In this document: positions 24,712 through 29,489 of the stretch, one piece after another
Position numbering within the stretch: the stretch's first letter is position 1
How the letters are laid out: each line of letters begins with the position of its first letter
DNA from: Deltaproteobacteria bacterium
Lineage (GTDB): Bacteria > Desulfobacterota > BSN033 > UBA1163
Assembly (NCBI GenBank): GCA_018333535.1
Contig: JAGXTA010000024.1
Location: 1-39,092, forward strand
Reading direction: 5' to 3'
Length of the DNA: 39,092 nucleotides
Translations under genes and position numbers: made by a program
The notes under the pieces: generated by a model
Told to the model about the DNA's origin: nothing
Database searches by the model: none
Seen by the model: the letters and a program-made list of their open reading frames with translations, nothing else

Positions 24712-24779
24712 TTCTGACCTGGCTGAGGGACTTGCGGTTCACCAAATGCGCAGCAATTCATCTTTTAAGTGAACTACAT

Positions 24780-24823
24780 CACTCCTGATATACTTTGGGG
24801 TTGGAATAAGTATATCAGAAGTG
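24780..24823. promoter_or_regulatory. Inverted-repeat operator candidate for AbiEi autoregulation
   Basis: The left arm CACTCCTGATATACTT (24780-24795) and right arm AAGTATATCAGAAGTG (24808-24823) are complementary at 15 of 16 positions, with a 12-nt spacer. The -35 element lies in the spacer and the right arm fills the -35/-10 interval, so a bound protein would block RNA polymerase. AbiEi antitoxins are known to repress their own promoters through inverted repeats. Confidence 0.7.
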
Positions 24824-24830
24824 CTATAAT
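24801..24830 (+). promoter_or_regulatory. Extended -10 promoter of the abiEi-abiEii-hsdM unit
   Basis: TTGGAA (24801-24806) and a perfect TATAAT (24825-24830) are separated by 18 nt, and TGC precedes the -10. Transcription would start near 24837, about 30 nt before ATG 24868. Confidence 0.68.
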
Positions 24831-24867: not shown

Positions 24868-25674
24868 ATGCAGACCATATCCGGTTTAGGGAAAATTGAG
24901 AGAGAAAGGTTAGCGGCGCTTATTCGGGGTACGAAAGGAACCGTTTCGGTTCCAGAGGCGGCCGGTATCTTGAAGGTTTCGCCTTCCGAAGCTTCCAAGA
25001 TGTTGTCAAAGTGGGCGAGCAAGGGCTGGCTTTCTCGCGTGCGGCAAGGGCTTTATATTCCCGTCTCAATCGAATCTCGAACCATTGATGTTCCCTTAGA
25101 AGACCCCTGGGTCATAGCGGACCGCTTGTATTCTCCTTGTTATATCGGAGGCTGGAGCGCAGCAGAGTATTGGGGCCTGACAGAGCAAATCTTTCGCACT
25201 GTTGTCGTAATGACAACGCAGAAACCAAGAAATCGAAAGCCGGTCATCAAAGGAACAGGATTCCTCCTACGGACAGTATCAGAGAAAAGTATGTTCGGAC
25301 TGAAACCTATCTGGAGAGGACAGGTAAAGATATCAGTCTCAGATCCAACCCGCACCATACTTGATATGCTGAGTAATCCCCAGCTTGGGGGTGGAATCCG
25401 TTCCACTGTCGATGTATTTAGAGATTACCTGAGGTCAGAGAATAAGAAGATAGATTTGTTGATCGAGTATGCGGATCGATTGGGAAATGGTTCTATATTT
25501 AAACGGCTCGGTTTTCTGTTGGAGCAATTTGCTCAGGATGAACAGAACATGATCAAGCTCTGTCAAACCAGACTCACAAAGGGAAATTCCAAGTTAGATC
25601 CAAAACTGCCTGGCGACAAATTGGTCACGCGATGGAGACTGTGGACTCCTAAGAATTGGGCAAAGGAGCGCTGA
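24868..25674 (+). CDS. abiEi: AbiEi-family antitoxin (type IV toxin-antitoxin)
   Basis: 268-residue protein. Residues 1-66 form a winged helix-turn-helix: ISGLGKIERERLAALIRGTK, then TVSVPEAAGILKVSPSEASK and SKGWLSRVRQGLYIPV, the AbiEi antitoxin domain. The middle (DPWVIADRLYSPCYIGGWSA, AEYWGLTEQ, VVVMTTQK) and the DPTRTILDML segment match the AbiEi C-terminal domain. In this family the antitoxin represses the operon by binding inverted repeats and counteracts the nucleotidyltransferase toxin. The start ATG 24868 agrees with family N-termini; an in-frame GTG at 24769 would overlap the promoter and operator and is rejected. The stop is one base before the toxin start. Confidence 0.88.
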   Translation: MQTISGLGKIERERLAALIRGTKGTVSVPEAAGILKVSPSEASKMLSKWASKGWLSRVRQGLYIPVSIESRTIDVPLEDPWVIADRLYSPCYIGGWSAAEYWGLTEQIFRTVVVMTTQKPRNRKPVIKGTGFLLRTVSEKSMFGLKPIWRGQVKISVSDPTRTILDMLSNPQLGGGIRSTVDVFRDYLRSENKKIDLLIEYADRLGNGSIFKRLGFLLEQFAQDEQNMIKLCQTRLTKGNSKLDPKLPGDKLVTRWRLWTPKNWAKER

Positions 25675-25675
25675 T

Positions 25676-27097
25676 TTGATTAGCCGTCTGGAAATATTGG
25701 ATTTTTCCAGGGAGTTTGGACTCACTTCAAATATTATTGAAAAAGATTATTTACTTGGATGGATATTAGGTGGTATCTCACAGCACAGCGAATTAGGTTC
25801 CGAATGGGTTTTCAAAGGCGGGACCTGCCTGAAAAAGTGTTATTTTGAAACCTACCGCTTTTCAGAGGACTTAGATTTTACAATTAAAAACCCTGATCAT
25901 TGCAATCAAGAGTTCTTGACAGATGCGTTCAAAGAAGTTGCCGATTGGGTTTATGAGAAAGCCGGCATTGAGATTCCGAGAGAGTTAATTCATTTCGAGA
26001 TTTATAGAAATCCACGTGGAAAATTATCGGCACAGGGCAGGATCAGCTATCGTGGCCCGTTGCAACGAGGTGGCGATTTACCCCGTGTAAAATTGGATCT
26101 AACCAATGACGAGATTTTAGTCCTTGATCCTGCGAACCGGGAGGTACATCATCCTTATTCTGATAGGCCAGAAGAAGGTTTCCATATTCTTTGCTATTGC
26201 TTCGAAGAGCTCTTCGCAGAAAAAATCAGGGCTTTGGGAGAGCGATTGAGACCACGAGACCTTTACGATGTTATCCATTTATATCGGCATGAGGGTATAA
26301 GACCAGATCGAGCTTTGCTGATGCGCACGCTCGAAGAGAAATGTAGATTCAAAGACGTTTCGGTCCCGACAATGGCCATTCTTGAGGAAAAACCGGGAAG
26401 AATCGAATTAGAAGCTGAGTGGGAAAACATGCTGGGACATCAATTGCCTGTTCTGGTACCTTTCGAACAATTCTGGACGGAGCTCCCAAAGGTTTTTGAG
26501 TGGATGTATCGTTCTATAGAAAAAACACTACCGCCTCCGATGCCACTCATGGGGATGGCGGTCGATAAATCATGGCGTGCACCTGCCATGCCTCGCGCCT
26601 GGCATTCGACGACACCGCTCGAGGTCATACGTTTCGCCGCTGCAAATCGACTGTGCGTGGATTTGACGTACGGCGGTACCCGTCGATTAATAGAGCCATA
26701 TTCGTTGCGTCAGACGCGTGAAGGGGACCTGTTGCTGTATGCAGTAAAACATAATACCGGAGAGGATAGGTCATACCGGACTGATCGTATTCAACGCGCG
26801 GAAGTTACAAAGATACCATTCAAGCCTCGATATGTCGTTGAGCTAACTGCCTCTGGTCCGATTTCAGCGCCGCCCACACTCCGTACGGCCATATCAAAGC
26901 CGACAAGGGGTATCTCAATTAGGTCTTCCCAGAAAAAAAGAACACCAAGCTATGGACCTAAATATATTTTCAAATGTCCTCTGTGCGGAAAACAGTTCTC
27001 ACATAAATCGAACGAGTCCTCTCTGAACAAACATAAGAACAAGCAAGGATATCCTTGCCCCGGTAGAACTGGGATATACACAACCACAAAATATTAG
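25676..27097 (+). CDS. AbiEii-type nucleotidyltransferase toxin fused to WYL-like and zinc-finger domains
   Basis: 473 residues, considerably longer than typical AbiEii toxins (about 300). Residues 1-285 are the toxin: nucleotidyltransferase motif GGT (48-50) with DLD (65-67), motif KLDLT (139-143), and the motif E182-K183...R194-D195-x-Y197-D198 (EKIRALGERLRPRDLYD). Residues about 314-385 resemble a WYL domain: LEVIRFAAANRLCVDLTYGG, then RRLIEPYSLR, LLLYAVKH and RSYRTDRI. Residues 434-461 form a CCHC finger (C434, C437, H453, C461; FKCPLCGKQF at its start). The WYL-coding DNA is visibly more GC-rich than the flanking parts, suggesting a mosaic gene. The start TTG 25676 has AAAGGAG upstream and nearly touches the abiEi stop. 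Its stop is 8 nt before hsdM and overlaps that gene's ribosome site. Possible roles for the added domains are ligand sensing and nucleic-acid binding (inference). Confidence 0.85.
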   Translation: MISRLEILDFSREFGLTSNIIEKDYLLGWILGGISQHSELGSEWVFKGGTCLKKCYFETYRFSEDLDFTIKNPDHCNQEFLTDAFKEVADWVYEKAGIEIPRELIHFEIYRNPRGKLSAQGRISYRGPLQRGGDLPRVKLDLTNDEILVLDPANREVHHPYSDRPEEGFHILCYCFEELFAEKIRALGERLRPRDLYDVIHLYRHEGIRPDRALLMRTLEEKCRFKDVSVPTMAILEEKPGRIELEAEWENMLGHQLPVLVPFEQFWTELPKVFEWMYRSIEKTLPPPMPLMGMAVDKSWRAPAMPRAWHSTTPLEVIRFAAANRLCVDLTYGGTRRLIEPYSLRQTREGDLLLYAVKHNTGEDRSYRTDRIQRAEVTKIPFKPRYVVELTASGPISAPPTLRTAISKPTRGISIRSSQKKRTPSYGPKYIFKCPLCGKQFSHKSNESSLNKHKNKQGYPCPGRTGIYTTTKY

Positions 27098-27105
27098 GAG
27101 AAACC

Positions 27106-28596
27106 ATGGCTAACTCGGCCATTGTTCAAAAACTCTGGAATTATTGCAACGTCCTTCGTGATGATGGGATGAGTTATGGCGACTATGTCGAACAGCTCAC
27201 TTATCTGTTGTTCCTCAAAATGACCGATGAGAGGACAAAGCCGCCATACAGTCAACCCAGCATAGTGCCGGCGGAATATAGCTGGCCCGCGCTTATTAGC
27301 AAGGATGGTAGTGAGCTTTTTGAACACTACAGAAAAGTTTTGGAAGAACTGGGAGGCAAGAAAGGACTACTTGGCCTTATTTTCGGTAAATCCCAGAACA
27401 AAATCCAAGATCCGGCAAAGCTGAGACGTCTTATCGTCGATCTCATTGACAAAGAAAACTGGTCAATGATGAGTTCTGATGTCAAAGGGGACGCCTACGA
27501 GGGGCTTCTAGAGAAAAATGCACAAGACCTTAAGTCCGGAGCGGGACAGTACTTTACTCCCCGAGAACTGATCCGAACCATGGTCGATGTTATTGCTCCG
27601 GAGCCTGGAGACAAGATCTGTGATCCAGCGTGCGGAACGGGAGGCTTTCTCTTCTTATCTCATAAATACATCATTGAACACTACCCCAATATGACTAAAG
27701 AAGAGAAGCGGAGGTTGAAGGAAGATACTTTCAAAGGCTGGGAAATCGTCCAAGGGACAGCCAGAGTCTGCGCGATGAACTTGCTTCTCCACGGGATAGG
27801 TGGAGACAAGAAAATGCCAATCATAGTGAGTGATTCTCTGGCCGGCGACCCTGGGGAACGCTTTGATATCGTCCTTACGAATCCTCCATTTGGGAAAAAG
27901 AGCAGCGTCACGATAGTCGGGGAAAACGGCAAGGTTTCCAAAGAAAAAGAGATTGTGGAGCGCGACGATTTCTGGGCGACGACATCCAACAAACAACTTA
28001 ACTTCCTTCAGCACGTAAAGACATTACTCAAACCCAATGGCCGAGCGGGAATTGTTGTTCCTGATAACGTGCTGTTTGAAGGCGGGGCCGGCGAGACTGT
28101 GCGTCGAAAATTGCTTCACGAATGTGACGTTCACACCCTGCTGAGACTTCCCACCGGTCTGTTTTATGCCCAAGGTGTCAAAGCAAATGTCCTCTTCTTT
28201 GATCGCAAACCAGCCAGCGAAACCCCTTGGACTAAAAAGCTCTGGATATATGACCTCCGCACCAATAAACACTTCACTCTGAAGACCGATCCTTTGCAGC
28301 GAAAAGACTTAGACGAGTTTGTGCAGTGTTACAATCCATCCAGTCGCCATGATCGTAAACCCACCTGGTCAGAAAAGAACCCTGATGGTCGCTGGCACTC
28401 CTACGATTATGAGGAACTAATCAGCCGCGACAAAGCCAGCCTCGATATTTTCTGGCTCAGAGACGAAAGTCTGGAGGAATCTGACAAGCTGCCAGACCCT
28501 GGAGTTCTCGCCCAAGAAATCTTAGAGGATCTTGAAGCCGCTCTCGAACAATTCAGGGAAATTGCAGAAGATTTAGGGCAAGAGAGTAGAAAATGA
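27106..28596 (+). CDS. hsdM: Type I restriction-modification DNA methyltransferase subunit HsdM
   Basis: 496-residue adenine-N6 methyltransferase subunit. The N-terminal helical domain (KLWNYCNVLRDDGMSYGDYV, then EQLTYLLFLKMTDE) precedes the catalytic domain. The latter has the SAM motif DPACGTGGF (173-181) and the catalytic NPPF motif (259-262). GQYFTPRELIRTMVDV is the usual link. TAGGAG overlaps the abiEii stop and serves ATG 27106, so the gene is the third in the abiE transcription unit. No specificity (hsdS) or restriction (hsdR) gene follows within the window; a toxin-antitoxin pair on the other strand does. An earlier broken copy of its 5' end lies at 24597-24711. Confidence 0.93.
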   Translation: MANSAIVQKLWNYCNVLRDDGMSYGDYVEQLTYLLFLKMTDERTKPPYSQPSIVPAEYSWPALISKDGSELFEHYRKVLEELGGKKGLLGLIFGKSQNKIQDPAKLRRLIVDLIDKENWSMMSSDVKGDAYEGLLEKNAQDLKSGAGQYFTPRELIRTMVDVIAPEPGDKICDPACGTGGFLFLSHKYIIEHYPNMTKEEKRRLKEDTFKGWEIVQGTARVCAMNLLLHGIGGDKKMPIIVSDSLAGDPGERFDIVLTNPPFGKKSSVTIVGENGKVSKEKEIVERDDFWATTSNKQLNFLQHVKTLLKPNGRAGIVVPDNVLFEGGAGETVRRKLLHECDVHTLLRLPTGLFYAQGVKANVLFFDRKPASETPWTKKLWIYDLRTNKHFTLKTDPLQRKDLDEFVQCYNPSSRHDRKPTWSEKNPDGRWHSYDYEELISRDKASLDIFWLRDESLEESDKLPDPGVLAQEILEDLEAALEQFREIAEDLGQESRK

Positions 28597-28830: not shown

Positions 28831-29241
28831 TTAGCCGAAGGGATTAATTACTTCAAGACCAGGATAATCGAAATCATTGGCATTCCGCGTCACCAGCCGT
28901 AACTCGTGGTGCAATGCTGTGGCAGCAAGAAGACTGTCGATGGTGGGGACTGGCCGTCCTGCCTCTACGAGGAGCCGGCCCCAGCGGTTAGCTACAGCAA
29001 GGTCAACCGTAAGCACCCGACCCTCGAACCAAGCCGGAAGCTCGTGCTCCAACCAGAGACGTAACTTCTCCCGCCGCCTTCTATCGGGGAGGGCCTCAAT
29101 GCCCTTGCGGATTTCACCAAGTGTCAGAACGCTCACAAAGAGCGCCTCAGCAGGGATCTGATCGAGCCATGAGATGACCGCCTTGTTCGGGTTACGGCGG
29201 ATTGTCTCTGATACAATATTGGTATCGAGCAGATAACTCAT
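28831..29241 (-). CDS. PIN-domain ribonuclease toxin (VapC family)
   Basis: 136-residue PIN domain. The acidic active-site residues are visible: D6 in LLDTNIVSE, E43 in LTLGEIRKG, D102 in PTIDSLLAATAL, and D123/D125 in TRNANDFDYPGLEVINPF. VapC toxins are Mg2+-dependent RNases that usually cut tRNA or rRNA. The start ATG 29241 overlaps the antitoxin gene's stop by 4 nt, the usual coupling in such operons. Confidence 0.92.
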   Translation of the reverse strand: MSYLLDTNIVSETIRRNPNKAVISWLDQIPAEALFVSVLTLGEIRKGIEALPDRRRREKLRLWLEHELPAWFEGRVLTVDLAVANRWGRLLVEAGRPVPTIDSLLAATALHHELRLVTRNANDFDYPGLEVINPFG

Positions 29242-29489
29242 GAAATTCCGGCCTCGCGTGTGAGGGTTTGCTCACGCCTCAGGTCAAGCTCCAGGCCGTA
29301 AAGTGGTGAGCAGCGCATGAATTCGACGAAACTACTTTTTGGGCGTTTGAGACGTTCGTACTCCTTGCTTGAAATCACGACAGCGGTCGGTTCCCCGTGA
29401 ACAGTGATTTTCTGCGGGCCTTCTTTTGCTGCCTTCTTGATCACTTCGCTCAAGCGGGCCTTTGCCTCCTGAAGCTGCCACATGCTCAT
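29238..29489 (-). CDS. Phd/YefM-family antitoxin
   Basis: 83-residue protein whose N-terminal half is the Phd/YefM DNA-binding fold: MSMWQLQEAKARLSEVIKKA, then EGPQKITVHGEPTAVVIS and KEYERLKR. The C-terminal tail (SFVEFMRCSPLYGLELDLRR) would be the toxin-binding part. It neutralises the adjacent PIN toxin and probably represses the promoter at 29521-29549. GAGGAAG lies upstream of ATG 29489. Confidence 0.9.
   Translation of the reverse strand: MSMWQLQEAKARLSEVIKKAAKEGPQKITVHGEPTAVVISSKEYERLKRPKSSFVEFMRCSPLYGLELDLRREQTLTREAGIS

Follow-up and report, generated by a model that had tools for sequence, protein, structure and literature searches.

The window, that is, the whole stretch of 39,092 nucleotides that was analyzed, contains an AbiE-type operon whose toxin gene runs in one frame from a nucleotidyltransferase (NTase) through a WYL domain and a basic linker into a predicted zinc finger. 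The features of the locus are as follows:

24785-24795 and 24808-24818, forward strand: putative AbiEi operator, a perfect 11-bp inverted repeat (CTGATATACTT ... AAGTATATCAG) read from the sequence
24868..25674, forward strand: abiEi, antitoxin and autorepressor (PF13338, 9.7e-9; PF09407, 5.9e-5; PADLOC AbiEi model PDLC02271, 8.9e-115)
25676..27097, forward strand: abiEii-WYL-finger toxin gene, 473 aa, TTG start (Pfam, PADLOC, conservation in relatives)
25676..26530, forward strand: NTase (MenT/AbiEii) part of the toxin, residues about 1-285 (PF08843, 4e-39 at residues 35-267; Foldseek)
26606..26854, forward strand: WYL domain, residues about 311-393 (PF13280, 77/77 relatives; Foldseek to DriD, PafBC, BrxR, and CapW)
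26855..26953, forward strand: predicted disordered basic linker, residues about 394-426 (pLDDT <50 at 393-424; family composition)
26954..27094, forward strand: predicted C-terminal CCHC zinc finger, C434-x2-C437-x15-H453-x7-C461, with the conserved tail GRxGxxVxTKY (ligand conservation; PDB profile match)
27106..28596, forward strand: hsdM-like N6-adenine methyltransferase (PF02384, 1.9e-69; PF12161, 6.1e-13; PADLOC MTase_I model PDLC03026, 1.5e-199)
28831-29489, reverse strand: Phd/YefM antitoxin and PIN-domain (VapC-like) toxin pair, a second toxin-antitoxin module that faces the end of hsdM

The cognate AbiEi, consisting of a wHTH and a C-terminal domain, is encoded in the same operon as the toxin. 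Its start is probably the ATG at 24868 (268 aa) and not the GTG at 24769 taken by the ORF caller, given the position of the ATG behind the promoter and repeat and the length of most relatives (264-280 aa). The operator repeat overlaps a promoter-like TTGGAA (24801-24806) and TATAAT (24825-24830) with an 18-nt spacer, a consensus match of a kind no commoner in this region than in shuffled sequence. A promoter and inverted repeat ahead of abiEi are the layout expected of an autoregulated AbiE operon, and we regard both as putative. Among relatives, no conserved operator sequence was found upstream of AbiEi, the sequence there not being conserved and the repeats being inconsistent.

The toxin gene starts at 25676, one base past the abiEi stop at 25674, and AAAGGAG at 25662-25668 lies 7 nt before its TTG. 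The frame is uninterrupted over 473 codons and constitutes a single intact gene. In comparison with a 77% identical relative (L005), substitutions in the NTase, WYL, and finger parts fall mainly at third codon positions, with a weaker bias in the linker (11/11/18 by codon position), indicating that the frame is genuinely translated throughout. A sequencing error fusing two genes, which the earlier sequence-only reading had named as a possible flaw in its case for a continuous frame, is ruled out by this bias and by the same frame in dozens of independent genomes.

The first part of the toxin has the hallmarks of AbiE, a DUF1814/PF08843 NTase with the motifs GG[ST]...DxD, KLD, and K..R..RPRDLYD, here KGGT (47-50), SEDLD (63-67), KLD (139-141), and the K..R..RPRDLYD stretch (183-198). 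As a whole, these motifs are nearly invariant across 81 relatives: K47, G48, G49, S63, D65, L66, D67, D141, E178, K183, D195, and D198 are identical in all 81 full-length sequences, and T50 of the GGT motif is Thr in 80. By Foldseek, the NTase is nearest to MenT4 (6y56, 1.2e-8), TglT/MenT3, and JHP933. The PADLOC AbiEii model PDLC02317 (396 positions) covers toxin residues 1-398 with an E value of 9.8e-182. The same genome contains three further AbiEii-like genes (contigs C175, C150, and C18), which are shorter and 28-39% identical to the toxin across the NTase.

The downstream hsdM begins 8 nt beyond the toxin stop codon and has its own AGGAG. Between hsdM and the opposite-strand PIN/Phd pair, the window holds no hsdS- or hsdR-sized frame, leaving the type I restriction-modification (R-M) set incomplete.

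The C-terminal extension

In classical AbiEii toxins of the same phylum, 2-68 residues follow the NTase in 31 of 32 cases, against about 190 in the window toxin, agreeing with the earlier claim that standard toxins end after this part. Residues 315-377 match PF13280 (E 2.9e-5; 24.4 bits vs. the curated cut-off of 21.8), and all 77 scanned members match both the AbiEii and the WYL models. The W-Y-L tripeptide is absent, being L352-L353-L354 in the window toxin and mainly aliphatic across the family. The superfamily does not conserve these letters strongly; its conserved features are a cysteine and four basic residues (Makarova et al. 2014; PMC4012209). In our own matching to the published positions, R337, R365, R368, R371, and C327 fit this signature, with conservation in 65, 76, 79, 73, and 76 of 81 sequences, respectively; R337 is replaced by proline in 14 of the 81. 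Y332 and I339-E340-P341-Y342 are invariant in the 81 full-length sequences.

We modeled the protein with AlphaFold2 on a 77-sequence alignment (pLDDT 85.7, pTM 0.77); only the linker, at residues 393-424, fell below pLDDT 50. After the NTases, the full-length model matched DriD with ssDNA, PafBC, CapW with ssDNA, and BrxR in Foldseek. The isolated tail (residues 305-473), modeled with lower overall confidence (pTM 0.48), had DriD, PafBC, BrxR, and CapW as its top matches, DriD with 26% identity and 2.2 Å over 85 columns, and gave Hfq and Sm proteins weakly. The model and the Foldseek matches support an Sm/SH3-like barrel fold for the WYL part. The structural search was needed for this link: DriD scored an E value of only about 0.3 with the WYL profile, and phmmer, given just the WYL region, matched no WYL protein in the PDB.

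Binding of ssDNA by PafB requires R181, Y196, R211, and R214. The family motif R365-S-Y-R368-x-D-R371-I keeps the R-x2-R spacing of PafB and lies opposite RSWRLDRM of DriD in the profile alignment. By this spacing and profile alignment, and not by an inspected superposition, R368 and R371 would correspond to PafB R211 and R214, R365 to R208, and R337 to R181. By the same reckoning the position of PafB Y196 holds L, V, or I in the family, so the ligand may differ from the ssDNA of PafB. In contrast to the ssDNA-sensing transcription factors, the toxin has no WCX extension after the WYL domain. The putative roles of the tail as sensor and nucleic-acid binder, both proposed in the sequence-only reading, gain support from its resemblance in fold to WYL domains that bind ssDNA.

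The linker, with 21% K+R and 2% D+E across the family, and the finger are both strongly basic. We predict a zinc finger from four Cys/His ligands at finger-like spacing: C434 and C437 are present in all 81 full-length members, and H453 and C461 in 80 of 81. None of the Pfam finger models exceeded its cut-off on the window protein (best 18.5 bits vs. 23.2), whereas C2H2 fingers in the PDB do match the family finger profile (best E 9.2e-9 for a whole sequence and 2.9e-4 for a single finger). In a search of 390 genomes, with up to 18 candidates per genome scored, 13 of the 15 matches to the finger profile were these very toxins; the finger thus belongs to this protein, and we rejected the idea of a general mobile domain in this phylum. 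A complete toxin, a WYL domain, and a CCHC finger in one frame, with the four ligands as first written, are thereby borne out, although in the profile check of the tail only the WYL part, and no single Pfam finger model, passed the cut-off.

About nine members, roughly a tenth of the family, have no finger in frame (L032, L033, L036, L037, L046, L063, L067, L081, and L082), the frame ending at about 400-427 aa. In L067 the finger is present in another frame, and in L032 the frame continues into an hsdM remnant; these members are either natural variants or products of decay. Such losses, together with the subthreshold Pfam finger scores, are what an ordinary AbiE toxin with a degenerate, functionally neutral extension would show. 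We consider that explanation highly improbable, as it is contradicted by the 99-100% conservation of the WYL core and the four finger ligands at about 50% identity across many phyla.

Family distribution and gene neighborhood

A scan covering 84,980 species genomes gave 237 confirmed relatives, of which we kept 80 loci with toxins 48-77% identical to that of the window, mostly across residues 1-473. They come from delta-, gamma-, beta-, and alphaproteobacteria, Nitrospirota, Acidobacteriota, Planctomycetota, Elusimicrobia, WOR-3, and one actinobacterium; further relatives are found on Rhizobium and Thiodictyon plasmids. Phage records contained no match to the toxin, and viral contigs contained two near-full-length relatives. 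The distances computed from the NTase and WYL parts correlate with r 0.79 (Mantel, 0 of 500 permutations) and those from the NTase and finger with 0.59, indicating that the parts were inherited together. Judged from these comparisons of sequence, the three-part toxin is an old, distinct, and widespread subfamily of AbiE (type IV) and neither an artefact nor a recent fusion.

This history bears on a proposal that the WYL domain had been captured late, made because its DNA is more GC-rich than both sides. The compositional part is correct for the window, where GC is 54.6% at 26520-26759 and about 46% on either side, but there is no such trend in the family: The WYL part exceeds the NTase in GC in just 41 of 81 members, and the mean difference is near zero. 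With the GC rise confined to the window copy, and with all three parts and their order kept throughout many phyla and their distances correlated, late capture is ruled out.

AbiEi lies directly upstream of the toxin in nearly all loci of the main family. A divergent clade (Sinorhizobium, Sphingomonas, and Streptomyces) is 24-29% identical and retains the NTase and WYL-like parts; the finger is kept in two of its three members, and the third ends after the basic linker. No convincing AbiEi was found within the 6-8 kb searched on each side of the three. A further toxin, L192, is 33% identical to the clade and has no AbiEi detected in the 1.5 kb of flank read. These divergent members are L117:8001-9395, L174:6001-7398, L173:6001-7239, and L192:1498-2751; the gene after L117 is presumably a DUF3800. 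The GGT motif reads GGN in the three members of the clade and GGS in L192, and we therefore found no support for a tie between the change to GGN and the loss of AbiEi, which the three fit but L192, with no AbiEi detected, does not. As the finger is absent in some members and AbiEi undetected in the divergent clade, neither appears strictly essential.

The four toxins with no AbiEi detected nearby share the architecture, and their NTase would need some other silencing. This could be provided if the WYL-finger part were a self-inhibitory lid on an otherwise standard AbiE toxin, rendering it intrinsically less active and leaving AbiEi as a repressor only. A pTM of 0.77 is consistent with fixed packing of NTase and WYL, but nearly all members of the main family retain AbiEi, and we rate a lid as improbable.

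The genes 3' of the toxin vary. Several families of type I methyltransferase occur there, as do type I nucleases, a SNF2 helicase, RadC, HNH, TPR, and a NACHT-associated domain. Where the hsdM of the window recurs in related loci, its nearest neighbors are Fic (L029 and L017), HipA (L021), or RhuM (L017) and not hsdS or hsdR. Among the other WYL loci for which enough sequence was available, 12 of 78 have a type I R-M gene directly behind the toxin, as does 1 of 35 loci of classical AbiE (one-sided P = 0.045). The sets were unmatched for taxon, L021 among the 12 is probably an hsdM fragment, and L063, scored as distant, probably belongs with the 12, as PADLOC places a REase_I directly behind it. 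Within 8 kb, the enrichment over classical AbiE has P = 0.087. We take this marginal enrichment as a hint only. The sequence-only reading had suggested looking for the architecture next to abiEi and hsdM in other genomes; abiEi precedes the toxin in nearly the whole main family, hsdM follows it in only a few loci, and a regular pairing with hsdM or with type I R-M finds no support, as most WYL loci have no adjoining R-M gene. In L012:9444-9599 and L013:2811-2912, the first 52 or 37 hsdM codons remain behind the toxin and are followed by unrelated sequence, a pattern suggesting that AbiE and hsdM were linked ancestrally and that the linkage has decayed more than once.

Alternatively, the tail might serve for docking or regulation, with a neighboring R-M complex or AbiEi as its partner, such that the toxin kills when type I R-M fails or is engaged. 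The window and the 12 loci do carry type I methyltransferase or nuclease genes of several unrelated families directly behind the toxin, yet the association is weak, its controls are unmatched for taxon, most WYL loci have no R-M gene alongside, and the hsdM of the window comes without hsdS or hsdR. We give docking slightly less credence than a lid and think it improbable.

Possible mode of action

MenT-type NTases lengthen tRNA acceptor ends or stems (PMC10435456, PMC11541572), and Serratia AbiEii perturbs tRNA levels (PMC7725324); from these we infer that tRNA is a likely target of the window toxin. The antitoxins of MenT1 and MenT3 work via induced autophosphorylation of the toxin, the site in MenT3 being S78 (PMC11375011), and by motif position T50 is its counterpart.

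Combining sequence and predicted structure, we tentatively propose, at slightly less than an even chance, that in this AbiE toxin a nucleic-acid ligand on the WYL domain gates the modification of tRNA, and that the finger serves as a nucleic-acid anchor. AbiEi would repress the operon and silence the NTase, possibly by antitoxin-induced phosphorylation of T50, as at S78 of MenT3. Upon phage infection or DNA damage, ssDNA or an oligonucleotide would occupy the arginine groove of the WYL domain and lift the inhibition; the freed NTase would extend tRNA acceptor ends, stopping translation and aborting the infection. The finger and basic linker would anchor the toxin to the nucleic-acid ligand or the tRNA substrate. 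The toxin would thus bring its own trigger and not depend solely on the loss of the antitoxin. The proposal draws on the nearly invariant NTase motifs, the fold nearest to MenT4, MenT3, and JHP933, of a tRNA-extending family, and the adjacent AbiEi, as well as on the WYL match to ssDNA-bound DriD, the conserved PafB-type arginines, and the basic linker and finger. Against it we count the loss of the Y196 aromatic, the variability of R337, the missing WCX, and the absence of the finger or AbiEi in some members. The more specific version, in which the WYL domain senses ssDNA or a phage-derived oligonucleotide and tRNA nucleotidylation follows, with sensor, anchor, and effector in one polypeptide restrained by AbiEi, we hold with less conviction, at perhaps a third.

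The main rival reads the WYL domain and finger as a substrate-recognition arm that holds tRNA or another RNA for the NTase, with no sensing and with AbiEi as the sole regulator. The Sm/SH3-like barrel with its weak Hfq and Sm matches, the basic linker and finger, the AbiEi kept in nearly all main-family loci, and the missing ssDNA-binding aromatic of PafB are all compatible with such an arm. However, classical AbiEii/MenT toxins modify tRNA without one, the WYL arginines match those of ligand-sensing WYL domains, and finger-less members exist. An arm of this kind seems to us unlikely, if the most credible of the alternatives to a ligand-gated toxin.

Comparison with known systems

The locus shares with AbiE type IV systems (AbiEi/AbiEii, and MenA/MenT in mycobacteria) the order of AbiEi and AbiEii, the near-invariant NTase motifs, the MenT-like fold, and the upstream wHTH AbiEi antitoxin with a putative repeat-flanked promoter; it differs from classical AbiE in its toxin, which is about 190 residues longer and adds the WYL domain and CCHC finger. 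DriD, PafBC, CapW, and BrxR share the WYL fold, the best DriD and CapW matches having 1.6-2.7 Å over 72-85 columns, and the arginine pair that PafB needs for ssDNA binding is also present in the window WYL. Those proteins, however, are wHTH transcription factors with a WCX, whereas the window WYL is carried by an enzyme and lacks the WCX and the W-Y-L aromatics.

The sequence-only reading held that such a toxin would differ from the classical AbiE pair. The AbiEii-WYL fusion itself is not new: It was printed in 2014 and lies inside a PADLOC model. The WYL-DUF1814 (AbiGII-like NTase) fusions of Makarova et al. 2014 are the same two-domain pair, with a nucleotide or nucleic-acid ligand predicted; the main text of that paper gives the fusion in one phrase, without the finger, AbiEi pairing, distribution, or motif analysis (PMC4012209). 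PDLC02317 takes in the same subfamily under the generic name AbiEii and ends before the linker and finger; since it spans the NTase and WYL domain, defense-system callers already count the subfamily as AbiEii. In the literature searched, which included few subscription papers, we saw neither the finger nor an AbiEi-toxin pair of this form described, and we found no experimental study of any family member; the three-part toxin seems never to have been studied. Recognizing it divides genes that the callers lump as plain AbiEii. A WYL domain with ssDNA-binding relatives and conserved arginines makes the question of what triggers AbiE during phage infection directly testable in one protein.
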